DNA from: Gemmatimonas sp.
GTDB taxonomy: Bacteria; Gemmatimonadota; Gemmatimonadetes; Gemmatimonadales; Gemmatimonadaceae
DNA length: 64,000 nucleotides
Assembly: GCF_027531815.1 (NCBI RefSeq)
Contig: NZ_JAPZSK010000006.1
Location: 124,001-188,000 of the forward strand
Direction: 5' to 3'
This document shows positions 42,162-60,014 of this stretch, piece by piece (the first letter of the stretch is position 1; every line of letters starts with the position of its first letter). The position numbers and the translations under genes are program-made. A model generated the notes under the pieces. It made no database searches, was not told the origin of the DNA, and saw only the letters and a program-made list of their open reading frames with translations.

Positions 42162-42193
42162 GCGCAGTTGGGGCAGACGAGCAGGCGCTTCAT
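42158..42193 (-). other. Possible 11-codon leader ORF before rsmH
   Basis: An ATG at 42193 opens MKRLLVCPNCA followed by TGA, which overlaps the rsmH GTG as GTGA, the coupling geometry used all through this operon. It lies inside the predicted leader. No ribosome-binding site is visible before the ATG, and chance is a real alternative. Confidence 0.3.
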
Positions 42194-42244
42194 GAGAGCG
42201 GCAGAGGCGCCACGATGGCGCGTGTAGGGGCGTCGCAACGGGGC

Positions 42245-42274
42245 ATGATAGTGAGATGCGGACAGCAGCGTCAA
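42245..42274 (-). promoter_or_regulatory. Predicted sigma70-type promoter of the dcw operon
   Basis: On the minus strand TTGACG (42274-42269) and TATCAT (42250-42245) are 18 bases apart, both close to consensus. The predicted start near 42238 leaves a leader of about 77 bases before rsmH. The rest of the 260-base gap (42162-42421) holds the terminator of the TPR gene, about 90 bases without recognisable sites, and this promoter. Confidence 0.6.
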
Positions 42275-42368
42275 CAGACGATGACGCGCGCAAAAATGTG
42301 CATTACCCGTGTGTTCGCACGGATGTGATACCCCGCGGTTATTCCGTTCTCGGTAGGGGCAAATGCCA

Positions 42369-42401
42369 GCGGGCCCGCCGTCACGAGGACGGCGGGCCCG
42401 C
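42369..42401 (-). terminator. Terminator of the secreted TPR gene
   Basis: A perfect 14-bp inverted repeat, gcgggcccgccgtc (42369-42382) with gacggcgggcccgc (42388-42401), and a 5-base loop. On the minus strand it is followed by TGGCATTTG. It begins 20 bases after the stop at 42422. Confidence 0.8.
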
Positions 42402-42421
42402 AGGTACCGCGTGCGATGCAA

Positions 42422-44122
42422 TTACTTGCAGATCGCCTTGATGAGCTGGTCGGCGTACGGATCGAGCTGCATGACGGCGCCCATGAGCTGGCGCATGGCA
42501 TCAGGCGAGAACGATCCCCCTCTGGGCAGCAGGATCTGCGCTTCGACGAAGAGATCCTTGGCTTCCTTGGCCGGCGCACACTGCTTGCTTTGCTGCGCCG
42601 CAGTCAGCTTGGCCTGACCGAAGGCCACGTACGTGGCCCCCAGCAGGAACTGCGACTGCGCCTTGAGGTTATTGGGCGCCACCGAGTCGGCGTACTTGAG
42701 CACGTCAACCGCGGCGGTGAAATCCTCGGTCGACTTGGACGCCGCGGCCTTCTTGTACGCGTCGTTGGCCGCCTGAAGAGCGAGCAGGCGCAGGTTCGTG
42801 GTGGTGTCGCCGGCAGCGATGGCCGCCTTGATGGCGGGCAACACTTCGTCACCCTTGCCCAGATCCTTGAGCAGCGTGATGCGCAGCGTCTGGGCGTTCT
42901 CTACCGGCATCTTGGCCGCCAGCGCCTTGTCGAGCGCTTCGAGGGCCTGCTGGTTCTGGCCCGCGGCGCGCAGCCCCACGATCTGCTCGTAGATGAGCGA
43001 GCCGTTGCTCGGGAACTTCGCGATGCCCTTGGAGGCCGTTTCCGCCGCCTTCTGGAACTGGCTGTCGGCCGCGTAGGCACGGGCGGTACGGATGAAGTAA
43101 GTCGTATCCGCGAAGGCCGTGTCGAGCTTGATGAGCTCGTCACCCTGCTCGAACGCCTGCTTGTAGTCCTTGGTGGAGAGCAGGATGAGCCAACGCAGCT
43201 TGAGCAGCTCCGGGTCGCCCGGGTTGGCCTGCACCGCTTCGTCGATCACGGGCTTGGCCACCGCCGGGTTGGCCAGGGCGGCAATGGCTTCCACCACGTC
43301 CTTCTGGAGGCGCGGATTCTTGGGGTCGGTGGCCAGCAGACGCGTGAGCGTCACGACGGCCGAGTCACCCTGGTTGGTGTCGCGGTAGCTCTGGGCGAGA
43401 ATGGCGAGCCCCGGGCGGCTCTTGGGATCGAGGTTCACGATCTCCTTCGCCAGCTCCAGCTGCTGCGCGGCCGGCGCCTTCTGCGTCACGAGCACGTTGG
43501 CCCAGCAGATGCGCGCCAGAGTGGCCTTGGGATAGGCGGCAATCCCCTCCTTGGCCGCCGCGATGGCCGCATCGTACTGCTGCTGACGCGCCGCGTTGAT
43601 GCACTTCTGCTCGAACTCGAGCTGCTTGCGCGCTTCCTTGAGCTCCTTGGCGATCCCGCTCGACGCGTCGCCCATGCCCTTCACGTCGTACATGCCGAGC
43701 GGCTGCACGAGCGCGTTGTCGCGGGCGAGCACCAGATACGCCTCGACCTTGACGCCCGTGGGCGTCTTGGTGGCGATGCCGGTGATGTACTCGTCGGCGC
43801 GCAGCAGGGTAGCCAGCGCCTTCTGGTCATGCGGCTCAAGCGCCTCGGTGACGGGGAACCCGGACGCCTCGAGGGTGGCGGTGATGTCCTGCTTGGGCAG
43901 CACATACACCTGCTTGAACGGGAACTCGCTCCCCATGCGCGAGCGAACCGCGTCGGCGGCCTGCACCCCCAGGCCCTTGTCGCCGCTGCGGAACACCGCA
44001 ACCATGACGCGCTTCGCGTTCGGATCGGGGACCCGGTTGTACTGGGCCGAAACCGTCGAGGGCACGAGGGTGCCACCGAGGGCCAAACCAATCCCTGCGA
44101 TCGCCTGGAAATGCCGTGACAT
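42422..44122 (-). CDS. Secreted tetratricopeptide-repeat protein
   Basis: A 566-residue exported protein. The signal peptide (residues 1-26, ending TVSAQ) is followed by a beta-rich domain of about 130 residues with VMVAVFRSGDKGLG and a region (DITATLEASGFPV) that may be periplasmic. Many TPR-type helical pairs run to the C-terminus (for example YDAAIAAAKEGIAAYP, NPGDPELLKLRWLILL). The ATG at 44122 has GGAGG about 11 bases upstream. It is monocistronic by position, between tRNA-Val and the dcw promoter, and ends in a strong terminator. A scaffold role is likely; no partner can be named. Confidence 0.75.
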   Translation of the reverse strand: MSRHFQAIAGIGLALGGTLVPSTVSAQYNRVPDPNAKRVMVAVFRSGDKGLGVQAADAVRSRMGSEFPFKQVYVLPKQDITATLEASGFPVTEALEPHDQKALATLLRADEYITGIATKTPTGVKVEAYLVLARDNALVQPLGMYDVKGMGDASSGIAKELKEARKQLEFEQKCINAARQQQYDAAIAAAKEGIAAYPKATLARICWANVLVTQKAPAAQQLELAKEIVNLDPKSRPGLAILAQSYRDTNQGDSAVVTLTRLLATDPKNPRLQKDVVEAIAALANPAVAKPVIDEAVQANPGDPELLKLRWLILLSTKDYKQAFEQGDELIKLDTAFADTTYFIRTARAYAADSQFQKAAETASKGIAKFPSNGSLIYEQIVGLRAAGQNQQALEALDKALAAKMPVENAQTLRITLLKDLGKGDEVLPAIKAAIAAGDTTTNLRLLALQAANDAYKKAAASKSTEDFTAAVDVLKYADSVAPNNLKAQSQFLLGATYVAFGQAKLTAAQQSKQCAPAKEAKDLFVEAQILLPRGGSFSPDAMRQLMGAVMQLDPYADQLIKAICK

Positions 44123-44233
44123 CAATGTCGTAACCTCCGCACCTGAGCCGTGGACCCGGGAACCCCGGGGGGGATGGAGCAACCCGTTGACTGTGCGAAG
44201 CCACGCGGGTCTGGGGGTAAGTCGAAGAAACTG

Positions 44234-44266
44234 CGGCCGCCGCGATCCGCCGGCAAGTTGCGGCCG
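44234..44266 (-). terminator. Possible terminator of tRNA-Val
   Basis: The arms cggccgc (44234-44240) and gcggccg (44260-44266) pair around a 19-base loop with an internal gccggc. On the minus strand CAGTTTCTTC follows. It begins 15 bases after the tRNA 3' end. Confidence 0.4.
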
Positions 44267-44281
44267 TCGGTCTTGGTGGGA

Positions 44282-44355
44282 TGGGCGAAGAGGGATTCGA
44301 ACCCCCGACCCCCTGTGTGTAAGACAGGTGCTCTAACCAGCTGAGCTATTCGCCC
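44282..44355 (-). tRNA. tRNA-Val (anticodon TAC)
   Basis: The minus strand folds into a full cloverleaf: acceptor GGGCGAA with TTCGCCC, D-stem GCTC/GAGC with loop AGCTGGTTA, anticodon stem CCTGT/ACAGG with loop CTTACAC (anticodon TAC), a 5-base variable region and T-arm GGGGG-TTCGAAT-CCCTC. It is 74 bases long including the discriminator A. The 3' CCA is not encoded, so a CCA-adding enzyme is needed. Confidence 0.96.
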
Positions 44356-44500
44356 GCTTTACGCCCCGTCGCGACCGCTTGCTGTAGCGAAACTACAACG
44401 AGGGTGGGGCGCTGTTACCGGTGAGGCAGAACTTTAACCGGATTGTCACGTTGGGCGGGATCTTGTCCCTGCCGCAAAGTGGAACATCCGGGTGGCGATC

Positions 44501-44671
44501 TCAACCCTTCAGGATCGCCAGCGGCACCAGGACCACGTACCCCAGCACCAGCAGGACCGGCGCAATGGTTTCGCCACCGCGGGCAAGGTCGACGTAACCG
44601 AACAGAAGCGAGGCGGCAGCCAGGCCCCAGTACAGCAGGGTGCGCGAGCGCGAGGTGTCGTTCGTGGTCAT
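44501..44671 (-). CDS. Small two-helix membrane protein
   Basis: A 56-residue product from the ATG at 44671: a polar start (MTTNDTSRSR), helix LLYWGLAAASLLFGYVDL, a short Gly/Glu turn and helix APVLLVLGYVVLVPLAIL, then Lys-Gly. The tight hydrophobic pattern in this frame only supports it as a gene. It lies 93 bases after the peptidase gene at the end of the chemosensory run, and 145 bases before tRNA-Val. The 145 bases hold no other clear feature. Function unknown. Confidence 0.6.
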   Translation of the reverse strand: MTTNDTSRSRTLLYWGLAAASLLFGYVDLARGGETIAPVLLVLGYVVLVPLAILKG

Positions 44672-44764
44672 ACGGGGGAGATTAGGGCGCGGCGGGAGGC
44701 GCCACAAGGGACGGCAGCGAACCGTATCCCGGCGGCATGGTCTGGCCGACAACCCGGCGGCCGT

Positions 44765-45772
44765 TCACGGCGTCACCCGAGGCTCCGCCTCCGACACGCC
44801 GCCGTCGAGGATGGCCTGCAGCGCGCTTTCCCGCGCGGCCGCCTCCTGCAGGGCGTCGGCTGCGCGCATAGCCTCCAGCTTCCGGCGATCGCGGCGCCGG
44901 CGGATCATGAACAGCGGCACGAGCACCAGCGAGAACAGCCCGACGGCAGCGGACACGTTCGTCACGAAGGCGAGGGCGCCGTACCGCGTGCGCGTTTGCG
45001 CGCGCCAGTGCTTCTCAAACGCCTCGCCGGTCATGCCGTAGGCCGTACGAACCGCCCGCTCGAACGAGCCGCTCTGCTTCCAGTACGCAAAGAAGTTGTC
45101 GAGGCCGGCGTCGCCGCCCAGGGCGTCCAGCTCGCTCACCACGCGGTGCGCCATGGCATAGCTCCACGACGCTTCCATTCCGCCACGGACAAATCCACGC
45201 TCGAGGGCCTCGAGCGTGGGCAGGGTACGCCACACCATGCCAAGCGAGGTCTCGAAAGCCTGTTCGCGCGTCCATTCTCCGGCGGCGAAGCTGGCATAGC
45301 CCTCGTCGAACCAGCGTGGCGGCAGCGGCCCCAGCGCCTCGTGCAGCGCGAGATGCGCCAGTTCATGGCGCAGCACCACACGCGGATCACCGGCATCGGA
45401 GCCGGCCCCGCGACCCTGCATGATGATGCGACGCTGGTCGGGGAACGCGAAGGCGGCACCCCATTCCGGCGCGTAGGGTCCGACCCAGGCCCGCAGACGG
45501 GCCGCGTCGGGGGCGATGGCAATGAGTACCTGCTGTCGAGGCCGCGGCAACCCCGGGAACGTGTCGCGGCGCTGCGCCTCGGCGAGCAGCGAGCGGGCCA
45601 GACGCTCGTCCTGCCGCTCGGCCACGATGGTGAAACGACCGGCATCGAGCCGTATGCCAGGGTCACGCGGCGCGCCCTGTGCAACGGCCATGGTGCGGAA
45701 CACGACAGCCGATAGGACCGTCAGGAGCAGGAACGCAGCCACCAGCTGGCGCAACAGGGGAGGCCCGCTCAC
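44765..45772 (-). CDS. Membrane-anchored HExxH (peptidase MA-like) metallopeptidase
   Basis: A 335-residue exported protein. A signal-anchor (residues 8-32) precedes a domain with RHELAHLAL (His136, Glu137, His140) and WFDEGYASF, whose Glu157 fits as third zinc ligand of a gluzincin. A C-terminal helix (about 268-287, VGLFSLVLVPLFMI) with a basic, then acidic cytoplasmic tail follows. The GTG at 45772 overlaps the upstream TPR stop as GTGA; an ATG at 45838 would overlap it by 70 bases. Being last in the chemosensory run, it could process a cell-surface part of the system, but this is inference only. Confidence 0.75.
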   Translation of the reverse strand: MSGPPLLRQLVAAFLLLTVLSAVVFRTMAVAQGAPRDPGIRLDAGRFTIVAERQDERLARSLLAEAQRRDTFPGLPRPRQQVLIAIAPDAARLRAWVGPYAPEWGAAFAFPDQRRIIMQGRGAGSDAGDPRVVLRHELAHLALHEALGPLPPRWFDEGYASFAAGEWTREQAFETSLGMVWRTLPTLEALERGFVRGGMEASWSYAMAHRVVSELDALGGDAGLDNFFAYWKQSGSFERAVRTAYGMTGEAFEKHWRAQTRTRYGALAFVTNVSAAVGLFSLVLVPLFMIRRRRDRRKLEAMRAADALQEAAARESALQAILDGGVSEAEPRVTP

Positions 45773-46683
45773 CCGTCGCGCGGCGGCGTTCCCCCCTGCT
45801 CCACCACGTCCAGCAGCTCCGCGCAGCGTTTCCCCCATGGACTGAACCTGTTTGCCTCGCTTCCGGTTTTCCACGCCAGGCACGCATCGCCATGCCGGCC
45901 AGCGAACCAGTAGCACCTGCCCAGTTCGTACCACGCCTGGAGCAGGTTGGGTCCGCGTTCGAGTGCCGTGCGGAAGAACCCTTCGGCATCGTCGTACATC
46001 TCACGCTCGCGATACGCCATGCCGAGGTACAGATGCGCGTAGAGCACGGCGCGGCGATCGTGATCGGCACGAATGACCGACGTGAGGTGCTCGATGGCCT
46101 CGCCGTAAATCCCCTTGCGCAGGCAAATGTACCCGACGTTCACGTGCGCCAACGGATACTGCGGTTCGCGCTGCAGGACGCCCTGCAGCACCTGCATGGC
46201 CTCGTCATGCGCGTCGCGCAGCATCAACGCCCACGACAGCAGGGTTTCCGCCTCCACATGGCCGGGGGCCAGCTCGAGTGCTCGGCGAAAGGCCGCTTCG
46301 GCGCCCTCGAGTTGGAGCAGCGACAGCCTCGACCACCCCTTCTCGACGAACGTGGAAGCGCCGAGGTGATCGACCCGGGCCGATGCCACGGGCGTTGCCG
46401 CGCGGGTCATGGGGCGTCCGTCGAACTGCTTCCACTGCTCGGCCAGCCGCTTCACCGCTTCCTTGCGCGCACTGGCCCGTTGCAGCGCCGCGTCGGCGTC
46501 ACGGAAGAGGGCAATGATCTGCAGCTTGAGCGCGTCACGTTCGGTCGCGTCCAGCGGGCTCGCCGCGTGGCGCCCGACCGCCTCATCGAGTGCGGCCTGC
46601 AGCTGCTGCAACTGCTCGTCCAGTGCCGCGGCCGTCGGAACCGCGGCCGCAGGATCAGGCGCGGCCGGTGACATTCCGCTCAT
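45769..46683 (-). CDS. TPR protein of the chemosensory cluster
   Basis: A 304-residue soluble protein. The N-terminal 100 residues are helical and charged (DEQLQQLQAALDEAVGRH, then SARKEAVKRLAEQWKQFDG). TPR-type repeats follow (GAEAAFRRALELAPGHVEAE, YGEAIEHLTSVIRADHDRR, YDDAEGFFRTALERGPNLLQ). The ATG at 46683 overlaps the CheW-like gene stop as ATGA. A scaffold for the neighbouring signalling proteins is likely; no enzyme motif is seen. Confidence 0.75.
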   Translation of the reverse strand: MSGMSPAAPDPAAAVPTAAALDEQLQQLQAALDEAVGRHAASPLDATERDALKLQIIALFRDADAALQRASARKEAVKRLAEQWKQFDGRPMTRAATPVASARVDHLGASTFVEKGWSRLSLLQLEGAEAAFRRALELAPGHVEAETLLSWALMLRDAHDEAMQVLQGVLQREPQYPLAHVNVGYICLRKGIYGEAIEHLTSVIRADHDRRAVLYAHLYLGMAYREREMYDDAEGFFRTALERGPNLLQAWYELGRCYWFAGRHGDACLAWKTGSEANRFSPWGKRCAELLDVVEQGGTPPRDG

Positions 46684-47150
46684 GCGGGCCGTGGGCAGCG
46701 GGCGGGATCGATGACCCAGACGGGAGAATCCATGCGAGGGAACATACCGCGAACGGCCGGATGCGCTGGTACTTCCTCCGCGAGCGTCGAGCGCGGCCGC
46801 ACGAGCACCGTGTCCACGGCGACCACGTCGAGCACCGCGTGGACGAGGCCGGCCAGATGCGGCGGTGCCGTGGCATGTGCCCGCAGGATGAGCACCCGAT
46901 CGTCTGGATGGCGGGTGTGGCACCCTTCGGCCTCCTCACCGATGGCGAGGGCGTGCACGGGGAGCATCGTACCGCCGAAGGGGACGAGCGCGGTGGCGGT
47001 GGTGGCACGCTCGACGCGCAGCACGCACTCCACCGGGATGGCCAGACGAAACGGGCCGTGCTGCACGATCACGAAGGTGCTGCGCTCGACGGGTGGTCGG
47101 GCACGATGGCGTGCCGCGGTGGATACGATCGAGCGGAACGTCGTAGTCAC
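46680..47150 (-). CDS. CheW-like domain protein (divergent)
   Basis: A 156-residue protein. RSTFVIVQHGPFRLAIPVEC and VLRVERA, then LVPFGGTMLPVHALAIGE, follow the beta-barrel pattern of CheW, with a second half LAGLVHAVLDVVAVDTVLV. It is shorter and more divergent than the CheW at 60011-60496 and has an Arg/Ala-rich N-terminus. The GTG at 47150 has GAGG 9 bases before it and lies 10 bases after cheB. It could be a second coupling protein or a CheW-fold adaptor for the TPR protein. Confidence 0.65.
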   Translation of the reverse strand: MTTTFRSIVSTAARHRARPPVERSTFVIVQHGPFRLAIPVECVLRVERATTATALVPFGGTMLPVHALAIGEEAEGCHTRHPDDRVLILRAHATAPPHLAGLVHAVLDVVAVDTVLVRPRSTLAEEVPAHPAVRGMFPRMDSPVWVIDPARCPRPA

Positions 47151-47160
47151 GACGGGCGCC

Positions 47161-48300
47161 TCATGCCGATTCCCGCAGCTGCAGGCGACGCTCGAGGACG
47201 TCAACCTGCGCCGCGATCACGGCGGCCAGCTCGTGCAGCGGGGCGACCGCGTCGGCGCCGCCGGCGCGCAGCGCCGCGTCCGGCATCCCCGGCACGACAG
47301 AGGTGGCGCGATCCTGCACGACCACGCGCCCGCCCGCGGCACGAATGGCCCGCGCCCCCTCGGCGGCATCACACCCCATCCCGGTGAGCACCACGGCGAC
47401 CGTCTGGGCGCCGTACACCTGGGCGACCGACTGGAACAGCGGATCGGCGGCGGGGCGTACTCCCCATTGCGCCGGATCGTCACCCAACAGCAGGCGCGGC
47501 ACTTCGCGCGGCCCGTGCAACCGCACATGCCGCCCGCCCGGCGCGATGTAGGCGTGCCCGGCCCGCAGCGGTTCGTTGTCTCCGGCTTCGTGTACCGTGA
47601 GCGCCGACGCGGCGTCGAGACGCCTCGCCAAGCTGGCGGTGAAGCCCGGTGGCATGTGCTGCACCACGAGCACCGCCGTGTCGGGCCACGCGGGCAAGGC
47701 CGGGAGCAGTTGCGAGAGCGCCGCCGGTCCGCCGGTCGAGGCCGCAATGCACACCACCCGCGAGGGGGCACCAGCCAGCGGCAGTTGCAGCGGCACCGCG
47801 CGCGGCGGCACCGGCAACTGTCCCGACGTCAGCACCGGGTGCGCGGCCACCTGCACATCGACGCTGGCGCGCAGCGCCTGCAGCAGATGCTCGCGCACCA
47901 CGTCGAGGTCCAGGCTGATGGCCCCCGACGGCTTGCGCACGAAATCCACGGCCCCCCGTTCGAGGGCGCGCAGCGTGGCGTCGGCGCCGCTGTCGGTACC
48001 GCCGCCACTCAGCATCACCACCGGGCGTGGATGATCGCGCATGATGAACTCCAGCGCCGCCAGGCCATTCAACGCGGGCATGTCCACGTCGAGCGTGACG
48101 ATATCGGGGTCGAGTACCGCGACTTGCCGCAAGGCTTCTTTACCGTCCCGGGCCGTGCCGACCACGGTGAACTCGCCAGTGGACTCCACCACTTCACTGA
48201 CCAGCTTCCGCATGAAGGCGCTGTCGTCCACCACGAGCACCCGCGTCGGTCGCGTGCCCGGCGGGCCCGAGGTGCCGACCGGCTGGTCAGAGCTCGACAT
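47161..48300 (-). CDS. cheB: Chemotaxis methylesterase CheB
   Basis: Response regulator with receptor glutamate methylesterase/deamidase activity. It has 379 residues. The receiver domain (about 19-135) has VLVVDDSAFMR and the phospho-acceptor in TLDVDMP (Asp71), with KP at 123-124. The esterase domain has CIAASTGGPAAL (Ser188), VVQHMPPGF (His215) and GMGCDAAEGA (Asp311), the catalytic triad. The ATG at 48300 overlaps cheD by 14 bases. No cheR or receptor gene is in the window. Confidence 0.95.
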   Translation of the reverse strand: MSSSDQPVGTSGPPGTRPTRVLVVDDSAFMRKLVSEVVESTGEFTVVGTARDGKEALRQVAVLDPDIVTLDVDMPALNGLAALEFIMRDHPRPVVMLSGGGTDSGADATLRALERGAVDFVRKPSGAISLDLDVVREHLLQALRASVDVQVAAHPVLTSGQLPVPPRAVPLQLPLAGAPSRVVCIAASTGGPAALSQLLPALPAWPDTAVLVVQHMPPGFTASLARRLDAASALTVHEAGDNEPLRAGHAYIAPGGRHVRLHGPREVPRLLLGDDPAQWGVRPAADPLFQSVAQVYGAQTVAVVLTGMGCDAAEGARAIRAAGGRVVVQDRATSVVPGMPDAALRAGGADAVAPLHELAAVIAAQVDVLERRLQLRESA

Positions 48301-48778
48301 CGTCGCCCCGCACGCTGCGCACGACGATGCGGCCGGTGGCCACGTCGAAGGTGAGCGAACGCCCCATGGAGCCACCCACCGCTTCCCCCACGATGGGGAC
48401 GTCGTGCGCGGCGCATGCCTGACGCGCCGCCTTCACATTGCGCACGCCGAGTCCTACGGCCCCGGCGGGAAGGAGCGCGCCGAACATGGAGGCACCGCCA
48501 ATGAGCCGCGCATTGATCTCGCCGCGGGCGCCGCAGGCACGCATGCGCTCCAGCATGGCGGGCACGGCGGTAAACGGAAACTTGCCGGGTCGCGGGGGCC
48601 GGGATGACAGAGCCGCATGCGGCAGGAGCACATGCGCCAGCGCCCCCACCCTTTCGGTGGCGTCGTACAGGGCCACCGCCACACAGCTCCCCAGCCCTGT
48701 CGTGACGAGGGTGAGCTCGCCCTGCCCCACTTCGATCTCGGCGATGCCGACCATGACGGGCGCCGCGAGCACGCTCAT
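48287..48778 (-). CDS. cheD: Chemoreceptor glutamine deamidase CheD
   Basis: Deamidates receptor glutamines and binds CheC, stimulating its phosphatase. It is 163 residues with TTGLGSCVAVALYD (Cys32), GALAHVLLP (His49) and KFPFTAVPAML, then IGGASMFG, in the order known for the family, so catalytically complete. It overlaps the PATAN-TPR gene as ATGA and cheB by 14 bases. Presence with CheC (56909-57697) fits a CheC-CheD feedback pair. Confidence 0.95.
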   Translation of the reverse strand: MSVLAAPVMVGIAEIEVGQGELTLVTTGLGSCVAVALYDATERVGALAHVLLPHAALSSRPPRPGKFPFTAVPAMLERMRACGARGEINARLIGGASMFGALLPAGAVGLGVRNVKAARQACAAHDVPIVGEAVGGSMGRSLTFDVATGRIVVRSVRGDDVEL

Positions 48779-50475
48779 GCGTCCGCCCCCAGCACGGCCA
48801 GCGCCTCATCGTGCGCGACGGGACGCGTGGCGGACGACTCGGGAAAGACCTGGTCGGCTGCCGGCAGCATGGCTGCCAGATTCGCCATGACGATGCGATT
48901 GCCGGGATCGAGCACCAGCGCCTGCTCCCACGCCTCACGGGCGTCGTCGAGTGCCCCACGCCGGTAGTGAATGTTCCCCAGCTTGAGGTAGACATCGGGG
49001 CCGTGCCACGGCGCGAGGCGCACCACCCGCACGAACGCGTCGAACGCCTCGTCGTAGCGCTGCGCGCGATAGAGATAATCGCCCAGGTTCTTGTGCAGGT
49101 GCGGACAGTTGGCGTCCTCCAGCAGCGCGTGTTCGAGCGTCCGCGCGGCCAGTTCGTAGCTGCCGCGCCGCTCGTGTATCACCGCAAGGTTGTTGTGCAG
49201 CGGCACGGCGTGCGGGTACACCGCCAACCCTTCCTCGAGCACGGCAACCGCCCGGCGACTGTCGCCGGCGAGTGCCGCGGCCAGACCGGCACTGTGGAAC
49301 CACGCGGCCGATGGCTGGCGCGCGCCCCACTGGGCGCGCGCGGTCGCCAGCAACGCCTCGGCGGCAGCGAGATCACCGTCGCGAAGCGCCATGTCGGCCC
49401 GCGACAGGGCGAGCCGCGGGTCGGGGAGCGACCCGGCACGTCGCGCGGCCTCGTCGAGGGCGCGCGATGCGCCCTCGCGGTCGCCGGTCTGTTCGAGAGC
49501 GAAGGCCAAGTTGTGCAGCACCGCCGACGGTGCCTCCGGCTCCTGGGCCGCCCGCGCGAAGGTGGACGCCGCGTCGGCCCAGGCTCCGCGGCGGGCGTGC
49601 ACCAGCCCCAGGTGAAAGCGGGCGATGCCATCGGACTCGCGCAGCTCGAGGACGCGGCGCAATTCGCGCGACGCCTCGTCCAGCATGCCGGTGCGATAGA
49701 ACGCGATGCCGAGGTTGCGATGCTCGGCCACGCGGCTCTCCGGGGGCGGCTGGCGGTGGGCCGCACTGCGCCCAACCCGCCGCGCGTAGCCCGTCGTCAC
49801 GAGTCCGTACAGTGCCTTGCCCACATCGAACTCGCTCAGTCCGGAGCGTTCGATGAGCGCGTGGACGTCGTTCGTCCCGTCGAGCAGCTCGGCAATGCGC
49901 TCCTGTACCGACGAGAGCGAGACGTCGCGCGCGCTGACGCGCGAGCCGTCGGCCTCGAAGATGAGGTCGAAGGACGGGATCTTCTTTTCAATGACCGACC
50001 ATTCGTCGATCCGGCGCGCCCCTTCCAGCAGCAGCGCGTCCGCACTGATGGAGAAGAGCGGCGCATCGAGCGAGAGGTCGCCATCGGACTCGAAGGTGAA
50101 GGTACCCTGCGTCCAGCCAAAGAGGTGGTACACCACTTCCTCGACCTGCGCCCGGAACACCTGCACCAGCAGGTCATGATCCACCAGCTCGCTGGCGAGC
50201 AGCGCCCTGGCCAGATCGCGGTCGTCCTGGAGCTGCAACTGGGCGGCGAGCCGCGCGAGTTCGTCAGCGGCAACGGCCCCGAGGCGCACGAGCCGATCGC
50301 CCAGCCGGTCGCGCCGATTGACGATGGAGGCGTGCACCACGCGCCCGTCGGCGAAGTGAACGGCGCCGAAGCTGCCATCGCGCGCGATGCTCAGGCACCC
50401 CGTCTTCTGCCCCAACGAGAGGAGCTGCAGGACATCGGCGAGACTGGCCTCGCTCAAGTTGCCGCGAATGGCCAT
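48775..50475 (-). CDS. PATAN (DUF4388) domain plus TPR protein
   Basis: A 566-residue soluble protein. The N-terminal PATAN/DUF4388 domain (about 1-240) starts GNLSEASLADVLQLLSLGQK, with VEEVVYHLFGWTQGTFTF. The C-terminal 320 residues are TPR-type repeats (HRNLGIAFYRTGMLDEASRE, HKNLGDYLYRAQRYDEAFDA). PATAN domains occur in cyanobacterial PatA-type regulators of gliding or twitching motility (family knowledge). The ATG at 50475 overlaps the DnaA-like stop as TAATG and has GAGGAG 8 bases upstream. It is probably an adaptor that ties the GTPase/ATPase pair to the Che proteins (inference). Confidence 0.85.
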   Translation of the reverse strand: MAIRGNLSEASLADVLQLLSLGQKTGCLSIARDGSFGAVHFADGRVVHASIVNRRDRLGDRLVRLGAVAADELARLAAQLQLQDDRDLARALLASELVDHDLLVQVFRAQVEEVVYHLFGWTQGTFTFESDGDLSLDAPLFSISADALLLEGARRIDEWSVIEKKIPSFDLIFEADGSRVSARDVSLSSVQERIAELLDGTNDVHALIERSGLSEFDVGKALYGLVTTGYARRVGRSAAHRQPPPESRVAEHRNLGIAFYRTGMLDEASRELRRVLELRESDGIARFHLGLVHARRGAWADAASTFARAAQEPEAPSAVLHNLAFALEQTGDREGASRALDEAARRAGSLPDPRLALSRADMALRDGDLAAAEALLATARAQWGARQPSAAWFHSAGLAAALAGDSRRAVAVLEEGLAVYPHAVPLHNNLAVIHERRGSYELAARTLEHALLEDANCPHLHKNLGDYLYRAQRYDEAFDAFVRVVRLAPWHGPDVYLKLGNIHYRRGALDDAREAWEQALVLDPGNRIVMANLAAMLPAADQVFPESSATRPVAHDEALAVLGADA

Positions 50476-52214
50476 TACCGGTACTCCTCAATGAGGCGAC
50501 CGCCGAGCTCTGGCCAGCGCCACATGGTCTTTTCCCGGTCTTCGAAGAACCGGTCGCGCTCTCCGGGTTCGAGACCGGCCAGCTGCTCGAGGCGCAGTCG
50601 CTCGCGCGCCGCGAGCAAGATCACGAGCCCGCCTTCGAAACGCGACCGCAGCCGGTCCGCCAGCCCGAGCATTTCCTTGGGCGGGCGAGAGCTCGTGAGC
50701 ACGACCTGCGCCCCGCGGCCCACGAGCAGGTTGAACAGATGGAACAGCTCGTCCTGTGTGCGTTCCTTTCCTTCCAGCTCCTGCACATCGTCGAGAATGA
50801 GCACATCGGCTTGGCGGTAGCGCACCCGCCAACGCTCCACCCCGCCCTCCTGCATCGCGGCGATGTATTCCTCGACGAACTGGCGAGCCGGCAGGCAGGC
50901 GACCTGCTTGCCTGGCCACTGCGCTTTCACCGCGTTGCCGATGGCGTGCGCGCAGTGGGTCTTGCCACTGCCGGCAGGTCCGTGCAGGAGGAGCGGATTG
51001 TAGCCGGCGCCCGGCGCGTCGATGACCGCATCAATGGCGCGTACGGCCAGCTGATTCTCGGCTCCCACCTGAAGGGCGGCCCGGGTGAATCCCGGTGACG
51101 GCGGCGGCAGCGGCAGCGCGGTATCGATGGTGTACTGCAGTAGCTGCTCGGCAGCCGGAATGGCCTCCACATTACGGAAGGCACCATGGCCACGCAGTGC
51201 CGGATCAATGGCGACCGCGTGCACCTCAAGGCCACGCAGATGGTCCACGGCGGCGGCATAGGCGCGCAGCAATCCGTCGGCATCGATGGCTTGGGGCGAT
51301 TGCAGTGCCCGCTCGAGGACCCTCACGTTCCAGCCGTCGACGCGGTAGGCGCCAATGGCCTCGCCAATGCGCACGCGCCAGGGTTCGACACGCGTCTCCA
51401 CCTCCGTCAGCACATCGGCAAGGAAGCCTTCGTAGTCCGTGCCGCTGGGAATGATGGCCCGAATGCGCTCGGGGGTGGGCGGGGCCGAAGGTGCGGCATG
51501 GACGCCGAGAACCGCACGCACCTCGTCGGAGGCCACCGGTCGGCCATCGAGCTGCTGGTATGCCGTGAGCTTGTTCAGCGCTCCCTTGAGTTCCCGCACG
51601 TTGCCGAACGGGAGGCGCGCCACCTCGTCGAGCACCCCATCGGCGAAGGAGTCGGCGCGGTCGGCCACGACATTGCGCAGAATGGCGAGGCGCAGTTCGA
51701 AGTCGGGCGCCCCCACATCCACCACGAGGCCGCCTGACAGTCGCGAGAGGAGTCGCTGGTCGACATCGGGGATCTCCGATGGCTGGCGATCGCTCGTGAG
51801 AACGAGTTGCTGGCCGGCGCTGAGCAACACGCTGAGCAGCCGCAGCAGTTCACTCTGCGTCTCCCGCTGGCCGGTCAGGAACTGGACATCATCGAGGATG
51901 AACAGGTCCGCCTGGGAAAAGGGCTCGAGAAACTGCTGCGGCTGTCCCGATGCCACCGCGCGGTGCAGCAGTTCGGCGACTTCTTCGCCCGACGAGAAGC
52001 GCACACGGACCGCCGGCTGCACCTCGCGGGTGCGATGGGCGATGGCCGCCACGAGATGCGTCTTGCCGAGCCCCGACCCACCATAGATGAAGAGCGGGTT
52101 GTAGGCCTGCCCGGGGGCGTCGGCCACTGCGCGTGCCGCCGAGACGGCCAATCGGTTCGAGGCGCCCACCACAAACGTGTCGAATCGCAGGGAGCGATCC
52201 ATGCTGCCGGTCAC
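50475..52214 (-). CDS. Tandem DnaA-type AAA+ ATPase without DNA-binding domain
   Basis: A 579-residue protein with two AAA+ modules of DnaA type. Module 1 has NPLFIYGGSGLGKTHL (Walker A 45-52), LFILDDVQFLTGQRETQSEL (Walker B 104-110), sensor 1 LVLTSDR, RLLSRLSGGLV (Arg-finger region) and the lid/sensor 2 GNVRELKGALNKL (204-216). A linker of about 135 residues follows. Module 2 has NPLLLHGPAGSGKTH (412-419), VLILDDVQELEGKERTQDEL (471-477), VVLTSSR and RLRSRFEGGLV, then stops without a lid. The DnaA helix-turn-helix domain IV is absent. Start GTG at 52214 overlaps the GTPase stop as GTGA. Both ATP sites look intact. It is not the replication initiator; a partner-binding or assembly ATPase is likelier. 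Confidence 0.9.
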   Translation of the reverse strand: MTGSMDRSLRFDTFVVGASNRLAVSAARAVADAPGQAYNPLFIYGGSGLGKTHLVAAIAHRTREVQPAVRVRFSSGEEVAELLHRAVASGQPQQFLEPFSQADLFILDDVQFLTGQRETQSELLRLLSVLLSAGQQLVLTSDRQPSEIPDVDQRLLSRLSGGLVVDVGAPDFELRLAILRNVVADRADSFADGVLDEVARLPFGNVRELKGALNKLTAYQQLDGRPVASDEVRAVLGVHAAPSAPPTPERIRAIIPSGTDYEGFLADVLTEVETRVEPWRVRIGEAIGAYRVDGWNVRVLERALQSPQAIDADGLLRAYAAAVDHLRGLEVHAVAIDPALRGHGAFRNVEAIPAAEQLLQYTIDTALPLPPPSPGFTRAALQVGAENQLAVRAIDAVIDAPGAGYNPLLLHGPAGSGKTHCAHAIGNAVKAQWPGKQVACLPARQFVEEYIAAMQEGGVERWRVRYRQADVLILDDVQELEGKERTQDELFHLFNLLVGRGAQVVLTSSRPPKEMLGLADRLRSRFEGGLVILLAARERLRLEQLAGLEPGERDRFFEDREKTMWRWPELGGRLIEEYR

Positions 52215-52915
52215 GCGGCGACACCAGCACCGGTCAGGACACCCTGCCCCGTCGGGGCGTCCAGTGCGGGCGCATACACGGGCGTGCGCAAGGCGGCGTT
52301 GGCCCGCCGCCCGGCCACGGTTCCGTCTTCAGCGCCCAGCCGCCGCAACACGGTGCGGCCCAGCGCCCGCAGCGTGTCGAAAACGCCCACGCCGTTCAGC
52401 GCATCGGCCGCGTATTCGGGGACGACGCGGAAGTTGAGCGCCGCCGACAGCTCGGCGACACTGGCCGCGAGCGAGGGTGGCAGGTCCTGCTTGTTGTACT
52501 GCAGCACGATCGGCAGCGCCCGGGCGTCCACCCCGTGTTCGGCCAGATTCGCGTGCATGTCCTGCAGGCTCTCGAAGTTGTCGTCCCACCGGTGCCGCTG
52601 ACTGTCGGCCACGAACGCCACGCCGTCGGCGCCCTGCAGTACCAGCTGCCTGATGGCCTTGTAGTACGGCTGGCCGGGCACGGTGTACAACTGGAAGCGC
52701 ACCTTGTACGCGCCCACGGTGCCAAGGTCTACCGGCAGGTAATCGAAAAAGAGGGTGCGATCACGACGCGTGGCAAGCGACGTGAGCGATCCCACCTGCC
52801 CGCTCGGCAAGGCCGAATGCAGATAGGTGAGATTTGTCGTCTTTCCCGACCGACCGGGGCCGTAATAGACCAGCTTGCAGGTGATCAGCCGCGTGGCGTG
52901 ATCGACAATGGGCAT
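52211..52915 (-). CDS. mglA: MglA-like small Ras-family GTPase
   Basis: A 234-residue GTPase close to Myxococcus MglA, which sets the leading cell pole in gliding and twitching motility. Switch and nucleotide motifs are VYYGPGRSGKTTNL (P-loop 19-26), RRDRTLFFDYLPVDLG, QLYTVPGQ (78-82), FVADSQRHR and QYNKQDLP (141-144). The Arg at 53 and the Gln at 82 match, by position, the intrinsic arginine finger and catalytic glutamine of Myxococcus MglA. A C-terminal tail of about 35 residues, Ala/Gly/Pro-rich, is extra. No roadblock (MglB) GAP gene is nearby. The ATG at 52915 follows a structured 83-base gap, and the stop overlaps the DnaA-like gene. Confidence 0.92.
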   Translation of the reverse strand: MPIVDHATRLITCKLVYYGPGRSGKTTNLTYLHSALPSGQVGSLTSLATRRDRTLFFDYLPVDLGTVGAYKVRFQLYTVPGQPYYKAIRQLVLQGADGVAFVADSQRHRWDDNFESLQDMHANLAEHGVDARALPIVLQYNKQDLPPSLAASVAELSAALNFRVVPEYAADALNGVGVFDTLRALGRTVLRRLGAEDGTVAGRRANAALRTPVYAPALDAPTGQGVLTGAGVAA

Positions 52916-52940
52916 GCGCCCGCTCCTCTTCCTCGCCGCA

Positions 52941-53003
52941 CGCCGGTGTAGGCACCGGCGCGTCCTCTCCGTAGACGGTACGCCGTCGCGCCCGTACCCT
53001 ACG
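52941..53003 (-). promoter_or_regulatory. Two hairpins in the gap before mglA
   Basis: In the 83 bases between the PATAN gene stop and mglA, minus-strand RNA can form two adjacent hairpins. One pairs 52993-53003 with 52970-52982 (11 bp plus a 2-base bulge, 10-base loop) and covers the PATAN stop codon. The other pairs cgccggtg (52941-52948) with caccggcg (52953-52960) around a 4-base loop. No T-run follows, so processing or stabilisation is likelier than termination. Confidence 0.55.
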
Positions 53004-54147
53004 GGTGCAACAGCGCGTGCAATCGAGCGGCCAGCCCGATGGCCTCACGCACCTGATCGGCGTTGGGCGGCGGTACCGGCGACCGCAGGGCGGCATTCCA
53101 GTGCGCCACCGCACCACGCAGATCCCCGGTCCGCGCCAGCGCATCTCCCTGCTGGCACAACACATGGCCGATCTGCCCGTCGGTGGGCACCGGAGCGCCG
53201 TCCGGCGGCTGCTCTTGTGGGAAGGACGGTTCAACGGGCGCTGGCGCAACCGCCGCCGACGTCATGCCGCTGCCCTGCCAGGGGGCGGGGGCAAGCGGCA
53301 GCCCGTCGGTGCTGAGAACGCCATGCGCCACCGGGTCGAAGAGCGAGTCCTCGTCCGGTTCCGCGGGCCCCACGATCGCCGTGTAGGAGCCCGATGGCAC
53401 CCAGAGTTCCGCGGCAACCGGCCCGGGGAGCGGCACCGCCGCGGTGGAGGTCGGCGGTGAGGAGCCCGGCGGAGCGGACGGCAGTTCGGCGGTGGTAGGG
53501 ATGCTCGCCATCGCGGGCGGCGTGGGATTGCGCCGCGGCGCGGCCTGTCCCTCGCGCAACGTGAGCAGCCCGGCCCCCAGCAGGTCGTGCACGAGGAGGG
53601 CCACATCAGTGACATCCCGCTGCATGGCGGCGGCGAGCGACATGAGGTCGCGCTGGCCATCGACACGCGTGAGGATGTCCCATTGCGGCGGCGTCAGGCG
53701 CAGCAACGGCAGCTGATGTGGCTCCACCTCGACGAATGCCGGGATGACACGCGCATGCGGCACCCGGGCCTCGATGTGCTGCCACACCTCGGCGCGCATG
53801 GCGGCGTCCATGAGCAGCGGCTCCACCGTGAGGCGCACCGCGCTGGGGTGCAGGGGCCGTTGGGCGGGCGCGAAGCGGAAGGTCCCGTCGCGCCAGAGCA
53901 GCACATCCTGCACGGCCGCTTCCATGGCCGCGCGATCGCTCTCCCGGCGCCGCGGCGCGGCCAGCTCGTGCACGCGGTCGGCTCCCACCACCTCGGCATC
54001 CACGATCGCCCCGGCCTCGAAGGCCAGCTGCGCGCGGCGCCCCTGCAGCGGCGCGTCGCAATGCAGCACACCGGTCTTTCGCCCCAGGGCCAGCAGTTGC
54101 AGGACCTCGGTCAGTGCCAGATCACGGAGCCGTCCTTCGAGAGCCAT
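52999..54147 (-). CDS. PATAN (DUF4388) domain protein
   Basis: A 382-residue soluble protein. The N-terminal domain starts MALEGRLRDLALTEVLQLLA and continues GRKTGVLHC, closely matching the start of the PATAN-TPR protein at 50475. DVLLWRDGTFRFAPAQRPL matches its second half. A winged-helix-like piece follows (LTRVDGQRDLMSLAAAM), then a Pro/Ser/Thr-rich linker of about 110 residues and a short TPR-like end (CQQGDALARTGDLRGAVAHW). The ATG at 54147 lies 8 bases after the large TPR gene. Role inferred as an adaptor for MglA or the Che array. Confidence 0.83.
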   Translation of the reverse strand: MALEGRLRDLALTEVLQLLALGRKTGVLHCDAPLQGRRAQLAFEAGAIVDAEVVGADRVHELAAPRRRESDRAAMEAAVQDVLLWRDGTFRFAPAQRPLHPSAVRLTVEPLLMDAAMRAEVWQHIEARVPHARVIPAFVEVEPHQLPLLRLTPPQWDILTRVDGQRDLMSLAAAMQRDVTDVALLVHDLLGAGLLTLREGQAAPRRNPTPPAMASIPTTAELPSAPPGSSPPTSTAAVPLPGPVAAELWVPSGSYTAIVGPAEPDEDSLFDPVAHGVLSTDGLPLAPAPWQGSGMTSAAVAPAPVEPSFPQEQPPDGAPVPTDGQIGHVLCQQGDALARTGDLRGAVAHWNAALRSPVPPPNADQVREAIGLAARLHALLHP

Positions 54148-54155
54148 ATGCCGCC

Positions 54156-56891
54156 TCAGGCCACGTGCGCAGTGATGGCCGACGCCGCCGGGGACGCGAT
54201 ATGCCGCGCCATTCCGCCAGGCCATGTCTCATCGAAGATGCATACGTCGACCGCTTCGGTGTCGGCCGCCGCATCGCCGTGGGGAAAGCGCGCGACCGCC
54301 GCGCGCGCGCGACTGCTCCAGGGCTCCGCGTCGGTGCGCCGCGAGAGGCGGCTCCAACGATCCACCGCATCGCGCAGCCGGGACTGTGCGGCGAGCAGCA
54401 CGCCATCCATCCAGATGGCCTGGGGATGGTCAGCGTCGTGGCGCAGCACCCGATTCACCGCTACGCGCGCATCGGTGTGCCGTTCCTCGGCCAACAGCAC
54501 CTCGGCCAGCAATGCGAGCGCGTCGAGGTCGGTGGGTATGGCCATGAGGTGTTCCACCAGTACCGACCGCGCGTCTGGGAGACGGCGTGCGTCGCGATGT
54601 ACGCGTGCCAGCTCGACGACGGCGTCGGGCCAGCCGGGCGCGGCGGCGAGCGCCGCCACCAGCTCGAGACGTGCGGCAAGCAGATCGCCGCGGTCACGCA
54701 GCAGACGTGCGATCGCCACCCGTGGTGTGGGGCGCATGGGGTCGTGCGCGAGCGCGCGACGATAAAAGCCGAGCGCGAGCGGTTCGTCACGCAGACGCAC
54801 CGACACATCACCAGCGTAATGCAAAAGCGCCGGACTGGCCACGTCGCGCCGCAGCACGCGAAGCAGCGCGCTCCGTGCTTCGTCGCGATAGGCCGTATCG
54901 TCGTATGCCGTGAGGGAGGCCGCCAGCAGCACGAGGACGTCGACGCTGTCGTTCACCTGGCGCGACAGACGGCGCAGCAATGACAGTGCGCCCGCCTCGC
55001 GACGCAGCAGACACTCGGAGCGTGCCTCCCCCAGCGCGGCGCGTATCCAGAGCGCGCGCCAGACGGCGCGCTCATCCGACGACGCCGATGCCTCGGCCGC
55101 GTCTGCATCGGGGGCGAGGGCCGTCTCCAGCAGGTCACGCGCCGCGCGATAGCGCTCCACCGCTTCGCCGTGCAGGATACGCACGGCATAGTCGTCGGCC
55201 GCTTCGCAGTGACGACGGGCACGTTCGCCCACCGGCGGCAGCGCGGGCGTGTGGTGCGGCCGTTCCGGGAGCAGCGCGTCGACCTCGCGGTCGCCGATCG
55301 CCACGCCCACCAGCGGCGTGCCGCCCACCAGGCTCAGCAGATCCACCGGGCCCACGGCGTCGGGGCACTCGCGCTGCAGATCGATTCCCACCGTGAGGCG
55401 GTCCTCCTTGTGCACCGACGCCCCAGCGAGCGCGCGCTGGGTTTCGCGCACGGCGCCGTCGCCGTCGCCAAGTTGCTCGAGTACCCGGGCCAGGGCGTAG
55501 CGCGCCTCGGCGTGCGCCGGGCGCGCCTCGATGGCCTTGACCAAGGCAGCACGTGCCTCCTCGAGGCGTGCCGTTTGCGCCAGCACGCGCCCCAGCACAT
55601 GCCACACCTCGGCCTCCTGTGGGTGGAACTCGGCCAGCTCGCGCAGCAGCGACAGGGCGGCCACGGCATCGTCGTGCCGGACGTACCAGCGCGCAAGGTT
55701 GAGCTGAGCCAGCACCAGGGTGGGGTCGAGCTCGGCCGCGCGCAGGAAGGCCTCGCGCGCGGCCTGCGTATCGCCACGGTCGGCGAGCGCCACGCCGAGA
55801 TTGTTGTAGGCGAGGGCGTGGCGAGGATCAATACGCAGGGCCCGGCGATAGCTGTCGGCCGCACCGGCGACCTCACCGGCCTGATGCAGGGCCACGCCGT
55901 GCTCGTTCCACCCCCGCGCCGTTTCTTCCATGCCCAGCAACAGCTCGTACCGCGCACGAGCCGATGCCGAGTCGCCATCGAGCAGGTCCAGTTCGGCGAG
56001 GGCGTGTTGTACGAGTCGCACATCCTCGCCCTGGGCCAGGGCCCGTACGAATTCCACGCGCGCCTCGCGGAAGTACCCACGCTGCCGAAAAGCGAGGCCC
56101 AAGCCGTGGCGCGCGAGCGCTCCGTTGGGTTCGACGGTCATCACCCCGGCGGCGGCGGTGTCGTGATGCGCTGCCGTAGCCTCGATGACGAGATCCCCCT
56201 GCAGCGCTTCCAGCGCCGGATTGAGCTGCGCCGCACGGCGTGCGGCTTCGATAGCCGCCTCGTGATTGCCCATGTCCCCCAGCACGAACCCACGCAGCAG
56301 GTGCGCGTCAGCCTGGTCGGGGTATTCGCGCACCAGCGCCTCGAGACCAGCGAGCGCCTGTTCGTATTGCCCGCGCTGGTACAGCACCTCGGCCAGGTGG
56401 AGCCGGGCGTTGCCCACCGCTCCGGCATTGACGGCCCGCGCGAACCATCGCTGTGCCCGCCGGAGGTCGCCGGCACGCTGCTCGACGAGGCCGCGCTCGA
56501 ACAGCGCCTCGGCGTCGTCGGGATCCTCGGCGATCAGCGCATCGAGCTGGTGCACGGCCGCGTCGGTACGCCCCAGGAGGCGCACGAGCTGAGCCCGTTC
56601 ACGCAATGCCGCGCGGTCAGCGGGGTTGGCGGCGATGCGTGCCTCCACGACGGCGAGTCGCGCATCACATGCTCCCGGTTGCCTCGCAGCAATCTCGAGA
56701 TTGCGCGCAGCGGCGCGCATGCGCGGATCGAGCTCCAGCGCCCGGAGAAACGCGTCCACCGCTTCCGCGTGGAGCCCGCGGGTGTGGTACAGCACACCGA
56801 GGTTGTTGAACGCCCCCGGATCCTGCTGATCGATGCGATCAGCGAGGGCGCGCAAGAGACCGGTGTGGGAACCGGCTGGATTCGCCTGCAT
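54156..56891 (-). CDS. Large TPR-repeat protein of the chemosensory cluster
   Basis: A 911-residue soluble protein made mostly of TPR-type repeats. Clear copies are NLGVLYHTRGLHAEAVDAFL, YNNLGVALADRGDTQAAREA and VWHVLGRVLAQTARLEEARA. Around residues 500-570 a non-repeat stretch (VDLLSLVGGTPLVGVAIGDR) interrupts, then helical repeats resume to a short unrelated tail. The ATG at 56891 is 17 bases after cheC; the stop is 8 bases before the PATAN gene. A large interaction platform for the module is the natural reading; nothing in it looks catalytic. Confidence 0.8.
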   Translation of the reverse strand: MQANPAGSHTGLLRALADRIDQQDPGAFNNLGVLYHTRGLHAEAVDAFLRALELDPRMRAAARNLEIAARQPGACDARLAVVEARIAANPADRAALRERAQLVRLLGRTDAAVHQLDALIAEDPDDAEALFERGLVEQRAGDLRRAQRWFARAVNAGAVGNARLHLAEVLYQRGQYEQALAGLEALVREYPDQADAHLLRGFVLGDMGNHEAAIEAARRAAQLNPALEALQGDLVIEATAAHHDTAAAGVMTVEPNGALARHGLGLAFRQRGYFREARVEFVRALAQGEDVRLVQHALAELDLLDGDSASARARYELLLGMEETARGWNEHGVALHQAGEVAGAADSYRRALRIDPRHALAYNNLGVALADRGDTQAAREAFLRAAELDPTLVLAQLNLARWYVRHDDAVAALSLLRELAEFHPQEAEVWHVLGRVLAQTARLEEARAALVKAIEARPAHAEARYALARVLEQLGDGDGAVRETQRALAGASVHKEDRLTVGIDLQRECPDAVGPVDLLSLVGGTPLVGVAIGDREVDALLPERPHHTPALPPVGERARRHCEAADDYAVRILHGEAVERYRAARDLLETALAPDADAAEASASSDERAVWRALWIRAALGEARSECLLRREAGALSLLRRLSRQVNDSVDVLVLLAASLTAYDDTAYRDEARSALLRVLRRDVASPALLHYAGDVSVRLRDEPLALGFYRRALAHDPMRPTPRVAIARLLRDRGDLLAARLELVAALAAAPGWPDAVVELARVHRDARRLPDARSVLVEHLMAIPTDLDALALLAEVLLAEERHTDARVAVNRVLRHDADHPQAIWMDGVLLAAQSRLRDAVDRWSRLSRRTDAEPWSSRARAAVARFPHGDAAADTEAVDVCIFDETWPGGMARHIASPAASAITAHVA

Positions 56892-56908: not shown

Positions 56909-57697
56909 TCAGGCCAGGCGAATGGCGCGCAACATGACCTGCAGCGACGCCGGGTCGGGCAGCAGGAGGAAGTATCCGCGCAGCGTGAGATCGGCCTCGC
57001 GCAGCAGGAACTCACTCTCCACGCACAGCACCGAATCGGGATCGGGAGCGAATTCGCCGGCGGCGGTGGAAAGCACCGCCGCCGACATGTCGATCACGAG
57101 GGTGGGCGGCGACGGCAACAGCAGCATGCCGAGAAAATCGCTGAGGGCATTCATGTAGGCCCCGCTGAGGATGTTCCCCGTTTCCTTGATGGCCGATGAC
57201 TCGAGCGCACTGAACGCGACGGAACTTCCCACGGGCCGCCGCAACATGAGCTCCGCCAACCGCATGACGGTAGGCTTGGGGAACACCAGCAACGTGCGTC
57301 CCGACAGATCGCCGAGCATGTGCATCATGACGGCCGCCACGGGCTCCTCGTGCGGCGACACCTGGGCGGGCAGTTCCTCCAGGCTCGCGAGGCAGATGGC
57401 GGGCACCTTGATCATGATGGTGCTACCGGTCATTTGCGAGAGGGCGGTGGCGGCGTGGCCAGCACCGATGTTCGCGATTTCCCGCAGCGCATCGAGCTGG
57501 ATGCTCTTGAGGGGGTGGACCGGGGGAGCGGGTCGCGGCGCCGACGACGCGGTACCGCCACGGGGCATTGCCGTGGTCACGGCGCGCCCTGCGGACGCCG
57601 GCGCAACGGCTGACCCGTCGGCGCGCGCGTGGCTGATGTCGTTGTGCTGCATGATCACGTCCGCCATGAATGAGACATCCCCGTTCGCCACCGTCAC
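56909..57697 (-). CDS. cheC: CheC-type CheY-P phosphatase
   Basis: Dephosphorylates CheY-P. It has 262 residues: a Pro/Ala-rich N-terminal segment of about 60, then the CheC fold. Both phosphatase signatures are present: DALREIANIGAG (Glu73, Asn76) and IKETGNILSGAYMNAL (Glu172, Asn175), so both active sites look complete. The GTG at 57697 overlaps the cheA TGA as GTGA; an ATG at 57667 is an alternative. The long N-terminal segment is unusual for CheC. It probably works with CheD (48287-48778). Confidence 0.9.
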   Translation of the reverse strand: MTVANGDVSFMADVIMQHNDISHARADGSAVAPASAGRAVTTAMPRGGTASSAPRPAPPVHPLKSIQLDALREIANIGAGHAATALSQMTGSTIMIKVPAICLASLEELPAQVSPHEEPVAAVMMHMLGDLSGRTLLVFPKPTVMRLAELMLRRPVGSSVAFSALESSAIKETGNILSGAYMNALSDFLGMLLLPSPPTLVIDMSAAVLSTAAGEFAPDPDSVLCVESEFLLREADLTLRGYFLLLPDPASLQVMLRAIRLA

Positions 57698-59634: not shown

Positions 59635-59648
59635 CAGGATGCTCCGGG

Positions 59649-60014
59649 TCAGGCGGCGAGTACGCGGTTCACCGCTTCCAGCACCCGACTGGGCTGGAAC
59701 GGCTTGACCACGAAGTCCTTCGCGCCTGCCTGGATGGCCTCCACCACGAGCGCCTGCTGGCCCATGGCGCTGCACATGAGGATGCGGGCGTGCGGATCGT
59801 GCGAGGTGATCTCACGCACGGCATCGATGCCCCCCATGTCGGGCATCACGATGTCCATGGTGACGAGATCCGGGCGCAGGTGCTTGTACTTCTCCACGGC
59901 CTGGACACCGGTTTCGGCTTCGCCGACCACCTCGAATCCTGCCTGGGTGAGGATGTCCCCCACCATGGTGCGCATGAAGATCGCGTCGTCGCAGATCAGT
60001 ACCGTCTTGCTCAC
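59649..60014 (-). CDS. cheY: CheY-type response regulator
   Basis: A stand-alone receiver of 121 residues with CDD (9-10 acidic pair), the phospho-acceptor in VTMDIVMPDM (Asp54), LMCSAMG (Ser) and DFVVKPFQ (Lys). It lacks any output domain, so it acts through binding a target. The start is GTG at 60014, overlapping cheW as GTGA. Confidence 0.96.
   Translation of the reverse strand: MSKTVLICDDAIFMRTMVGDILTQAGFEVVGEAETGVQAVEKYKHLRPDLVTMDIVMPDMGGIDAVREITSHDPHARILMCSAMGQQALVVEAIQAGAKDFVVKPFQPSRVLEAVNRVLAA

Follow-up and report, generated by a model that had tools for sequence, protein, structure and literature searches.

The DNA analysed here, a 64,000-nucleotide stretch of a Gemmatimonas contig (the window), encodes two DnaA-type ATPase modules in a single chain, set among genes for chemosensory proteins and an MglA-type GTPase. 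DnaA domain III is the engine of DNA replication and, in Hda, its controller. The locus raises the question of what such an engine, present in two copies, does in a motility setting. The gene for this tandem protein and its parts are as follows.

50475-52214, minus strand: two-module DnaA-type AAA+ protein, 579 aa, GTG start (ORF, two Bac_DnaA matches, AlphaFold2)
51705-52193, minus strand: module 1, DnaA domain III AAA+ core, residues 8-170 (Pfam, motif survey, structure match)
51495-51704, minus strand: lid and sensor 2 (NVREL) of module 1, residues 171-240 (alignment; DnaA structure match to residue 239)
51117-51431, minus strand: middle helical domain (MD), residues 262-366, with the persistent motif EFxxFLxDVxxxVxxxVE as its first helix
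50592-51101, minus strand: module 2, DnaA domain III AAA+ core, residues 372-541 (Pfam), missing the lid that relatives have
50478-50549, minus strand: C-terminal tail FFEDREKTMWRWPELGGRLIEEYR, a conserved motif that is disordered or of low confidence in the model of the protein alone

An earlier note on this sequence had claimed two DnaA AAA+ modules in one chain, each with Walker A, Walker B and an arginine finger, and this description was confirmed. Pfam Bac_DnaA matched residues 6-166 (2.8e-50, module 1) and residues ~381-532 (4e-47, module 2), both matches spanning nearly the whole 162-position profile and lying far above chance. A motif survey found Walker A (GKT), Walker B (DD) and the arginine-finger SR in both modules, and the lid and sensor 2 (VRE) only in module 1. 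The structure of the protein alone was predicted with AlphaFold2, as the note had proposed, from an alignment of 58 rows (pLDDT 88.8). Superposition of module 1 of this model on DnaA (8btg) gave 1.5 Å over 237 residues with a Z-score of 30.9, and the identity to DnaA domain III was 38% over 237 residues. With DnaA domain III (TIGR00362, PF00308; 8btg, 8bv3, 2z4r) the tandem protein shares the AAA+ fold, the Walker motifs, the arginine finger and, in module 1, the lid and sensor 2. Unlike DnaA, it has two modules, starts at domain III, lacks domain IV and has the MD and the tail as extra parts. Neither the MD nor the conserved tail had been described in the earlier note. The MD was modelled with a pLDDT mostly of 92-98 beyond residue 280 and is a single copy in the genome. 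It gave no convincing match in profile searches of Pfam (weak one- or two-member hits) or the PDB (E>=0.19).

The chain opens with module 1 at residue 6-8, the N-terminal domains I-II of DnaA being absent. Since residues 240-375 and 540-579 matched no Pfam family at E<=1, the DNA-binding domain IV is absent too, as had been claimed, and its concealment in the MD or the C-terminus was ruled out. The TIGR00362 match ends at profile position 351 of 437. A complete separate DnaA with the usual C-terminal sequence is encoded on another contig of the same genome. The tandem protein scored 424.8 bits against TIGR00362, the DnaA equivalog profile, exceeding the cut-off of 343.9 because the scores of the two modules add up. 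Given this score, automatic annotation may name the protein DnaA, and genomes may carry a false second DnaA.

Like Hda/HdaA (TIGR03420), the tandem protein is a paralogue of DnaA domain III without domain IV. Hda is a single-module protein that binds the clamp through a motif at its N-terminus; in contrast, the tandem protein has a second module, an additional domain and a place in a motility locus. Its match to TIGR03420 reached 144 bits, below the cut-off of 194.8, and the sliding-clamp motif was not seen in the N-terminus, VTGSMDRSLRFDTF, on comparison by eye. The lid-less module 2 superposed on the loaders IstB (Z 19.0) and DnaC (Z 17.9), but the sequence match to these was much weaker than to DnaA (105.8 bits against a cut-off of 200 for NF038214, with Bac_DnaA far stronger), and neither a transposase nor a DnaB partner was found near the gene.

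Among 200 genomes of the phylum, the tandem protein was found in many genera and several families of Gemmatimonadota. A wide scan with a single pattern covered 84,980 species, one genome per species, and its best 80 loci were inspected. They included 28 tandem-family loci, all from Gemmatimonadota (the record of the short-form locus L167 carries no phylum name). The long two-module matches among these 80 came from records named Gemmatimonadota, Gemmatimonadetes, Gemmatimonas, Gemmatimonadaceae, Gemmatimonadales or Longimicrobiales, and the loci of other phyla among them matched over about the length of one DnaA module. The tandem family is widespread in Gemmatimonadota and may occur in other phyla. 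The literature searched gave no account of a protein of this kind; the tandem protein is a new member of the DnaA AAA+ family.

The tandem gene is embedded in the following cluster.

56909-59775, minus strand: CheC and CheA, in two ORFs, 56909-57766 and 57694-59775 (Pfam)
54156-56891, minus strand: long TPR protein, 911 aa (Pfam TPR repeats)
52999-54225, minus strand: second DUF4388 protein (Pfam, 1.6e-20)
52211-52915, minus strand: MglA-type small GTPase, 234 aa (phmmer against M. xanthus MglA 5ymx, 2.3e-63)
48775-50475, minus strand: the partner gene, DUF4388 with a degenerate MshEN-like insert plus TPR repeats (DUF4388-TPR), 566 aa (Pfam, overlap, synteny, MshEN motif scan)
47161-48778, minus strand: CheD (48287-48778) and CheB (47161-48375), 3' of the partner (Pfam)

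The order in the window is CheA, CheC, the 911-aa TPR protein, DUF4388, MglA, the tandem protein, DUF4388-TPR, CheD and CheB. The order conserved across genera is (RluD)-CheA-CheC-TPR-DUF4388-[MglB-like]-MglA-tandem-DUF4388/TPR-CheR/D/B; mglA is preceded in relatives by a roadblock (MglB-like) gene and by one of 171 aa, and CheR lies further 3'. The roadblock and 171-aa genes are missing from this position in the window (52916-52998), and two roadblock proteins are encoded elsewhere in the genome. The conserved 171-aa gene, which lies between the MglB-like gene and mglA (10513-11028 in locus L037), has no Pfam match. Many genomes of the phylum have two MglA paralogues, one in the cluster (52211-52915 here) and one elsewhere.

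Of the reading in the earlier note, the covalent tandem of DnaA modules without domain IV is supported, and its setting is a motility or polarity operon. In M. xanthus, MglA-SgmX controls the polarity of type IV pili (PMC7668184). The cluster shares with that system the MglA GTPase, a TPR protein and chemosensory control, the long TPR protein being a possible counterpart of SgmX. A DnaA-type AAA+ component, present in the window cluster, was not found described in that paper (PMC7668184).

The earlier note had further suggested that the tandem ATPase may seed a filament or clamp, with MglA-GTP as its platform. The mglA gene overlaps the tandem gene by four bases in the window (GTGA, 52211-52214) and lies immediately 5' of it in most loci of families f1-f4, f6 and f9. 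The overlap with mglA is not general, however, and the conserved overlap is the one with DUF4388-TPR. The partner ATG shares one base with the tandem-gene stop codon (TGATG); the same overlap is found in most loci, with abutting genes in others, so that nearly all loci, those without mglA among them, show one or the other. Genomes G021, G023 and G190 have neither the cluster MglA nor any AAA+ module, yet a peptide with two motifs, the first MD helix and the tail, precedes DUF4388-TPR with a stop/start overlap. G016 has lost the cluster MglA and retained the peptide. In family f5, the full protein and DUF4388-TPR are paired away from any mglA, and these are the only two genes kept together. Whatever its form, the two-motif gene or peptide lies directly 5' of DUF4388-TPR, usually overlapping it. 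Its retention in these loci without the cluster MglA, each time with DUF4388-TPR, weakens the platform idea, points to DUF4388-TPR instead and makes assembly on MglA unlikely, although a second MglA paralogue outside the cluster may act as the partner in such genomes. The adjacency of the tandem gene and DUF4388-TPR can, for its part, reflect co-regulation rather than binding.

Most family members are ~640 aa long and have a second lid, and the natural sizes range from ~690 down to 60 residues. A lid in module 1 only, as the earlier note had it, is correct for the window protein but is not a general rule: the second lid is gone, with the tail retained, in the window genus and a few others, whereas L013, of the same genus, and most of the family retain it. 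The second lid was thus lost recently, and in frame, inside the window genus. A frame error was ruled out, as close relatives have the same end. A single AAA+ module was found in families f9 and f6 and in genus g7, a decayed one in L077, and the MD and tail alone in L076. In genera g3, g4 and g13 the gene is down to a peptide of 60-75 aa, made up of the first MD helix and the tail. The g4 peptide, MADETAEYDDFLTDLQSVVAQRVEELRARQSAETPAAFNDDEKVVRVWPELSGRIMEEFR, lies directly 5' of DUF4388-TPR, with mglA, the long TPR protein and the AAA+ modules all absent. The dN/dS of the peptide genes was 0.07-0.22, and these short peptides are real coding genes. In the tree, one branch separates all module 1 sequences from the rest and another does so for module 2 (SH-aLRT 100 and 98), which indicates that the two-module state is old and that forms with one AAA+ module or none came later. 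On the partner-gene tree, module 2 was lost ~3 times and all AAA+ modules at least twice; the AAA+ absence in L104, which lies at a contig end, was left out of these counts. The small forms are thus derived, and the two motifs are the part that selection never released. A recent origin from the phylum's own dnaA was unsupported, as both modules branch away from dnaA, the deep branches being weak.

Throughout the family, the tail motif, EKVVWxWPDxxxRLIEExR, stands ~11 residues before the C-terminus. Its column identity was 0.63 compared to 0.65 for the AAA+ core, and its pLDDT was 50-60 in the model of the tandem protein alone. Low model confidence together with high conservation is as expected of a docking peptide. 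In a model of a natural peptide reading through into DUF4388-TPR, the tail pLDDT was ~75-81, a rise that is weak evidence since tail and partner were joined without a linker, few rows were paired and a contact map was lacking. Mini-peptide rows, misplaced by MAFFT when aligned alone, were omitted from the second model. The modelling weakly suggests that the tail may dock on DUF4388-TPR.

The series of smaller forms could also mean that the two-motif peptide alone matters, with the AAA+ modules as passengers in decay, given that the second lid, module 2 and finally all AAA+ were lost repeatedly. The Walker A motif of module 2 is lost in 8 of the 54 members having this module, mainly in family f5, where the module 2 Walker motifs are degenerate. 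Selection and conservation argue against this. The dN/dS was 0.12 for the tandem gene against two relatives and 0.05-0.17 for either module within the window genus, where both are under purifying selection. The Walker A motif of module 1 is intact in all 58 aligned members. We consider it improbable that the modules are relics.

A further improbable alternative is that the protein is a nucleic-acid-binding factor that retains the single-strand-binding stretch of DnaA in module 2 and acts on DNA or RNA, for example in pilus-linked DNA uptake or Hda-like DnaA control: the module 2 GKERTQ equals the stretch of A. aeolicus DnaA that contacts single-stranded DNA, and is found in 23 of 58 members, but it is altered in module 1 (GxRETQ), module 2 or its Walker motifs are lost in several lineages, domain IV is lacking and the neighbouring genes are for signalling, not DNA processing.

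Most DUF4388-TPR relatives have a ~53-residue MshEN-like insert within the DUF4388 domain. Of the 32 inserts covered by a motif scan, 11 had two relaxed 24-residue MshEN motifs and 14 had a single one; the insert of the window partner had none. MshEN is the c-di-GMP receptor domain of pilus ATPases (PMC5013675). The inserts of the relatives share its tandem 24-residue motif, with a spacer of six or seven residues rather than five and a position inside DUF4388. Such an insert within DUF4388, degenerate in the window genus and intact in many relatives, is a possible c-di-GMP receptor architecture. It is absent from the DUF4388-TPR of the peptide-only clade. AAA+ loss goes with MshEN loss in the peptide clade, but a general link between the two had no statistical support, as that clade is one event and L076 lost the AAA+ modules and retained the insert.

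No pilus genes were found within the cluster. At least two PilT genes were counted by hand in ~129 of 133 genomes with DUF4388-TPR compared to ~18 of 67 without, a count that ignores kinship. The pilus link draws on the neighbouring genes and on this PilT copy number, a correlation in which phylogeny is a confounder. DUF4388 is equivalent to the PATAN domain. In cyanobacteria, PATAN response regulators bind PilB1, according to work cited in PMC9090330.

We give about an even chance to the reading that the tandem protein is an ATP-controlled regulatory subunit, docked by its tail on DUF4388-TPR, in an MglA/chemosensory module that probably steers type IV pili. It is a paralogue of the DnaA ATPase domain, tandemly duplicated and apparently uncoupled from DNA replication. 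Its constant function would be carried by the first MD helix and the tail, and the tail would most likely dock on the DUF4388-TPR product of the overlapping downstream gene. The AAA+ modules would be an optional ATP-controlled device for dimerisation or assembly carried by the adaptor: ATP at module 1, complemented by an arginine finger, would rearrange the DUF4388-TPR complex. The output would probably be the type IV pilus machinery, parallel to the Che signal. A further parallel input, in many relatives, might be c-di-GMP, with the MshEN-like insert as its sensor. The data establish the domain layout, its conservation, the gene order, the stepwise erosion and the purifying selection; the docking partner, the switching by ATP and the pilus output are inferences. 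Loss of the AAA+ modules in two lineages means that the ATPase is dispensable there and may not be the switch.

A fuller version of this proposal is possible but doubtful. In it, the duplicated initiator engine would be an optional ATP switch on a two-motif adaptor linking a c-di-GMP-sensing DUF4388-TPR, MglA and chemosensing to type IV pili, and the engine-less lineages would keep the bare adaptor. Two copies of the DnaA engine at work in motility would demonstrate that evolution can put the initiator ATPase to use away from DNA metabolism. With adaptor and engine separated in a natural size series, from ~690 to 60 residues, the question lends itself to a direct test.

On the 3' side of the cluster (41211-48375), a run of CheB, TPR, Peptidase_MA_2, TPR and RsmH genes is largely conserved.
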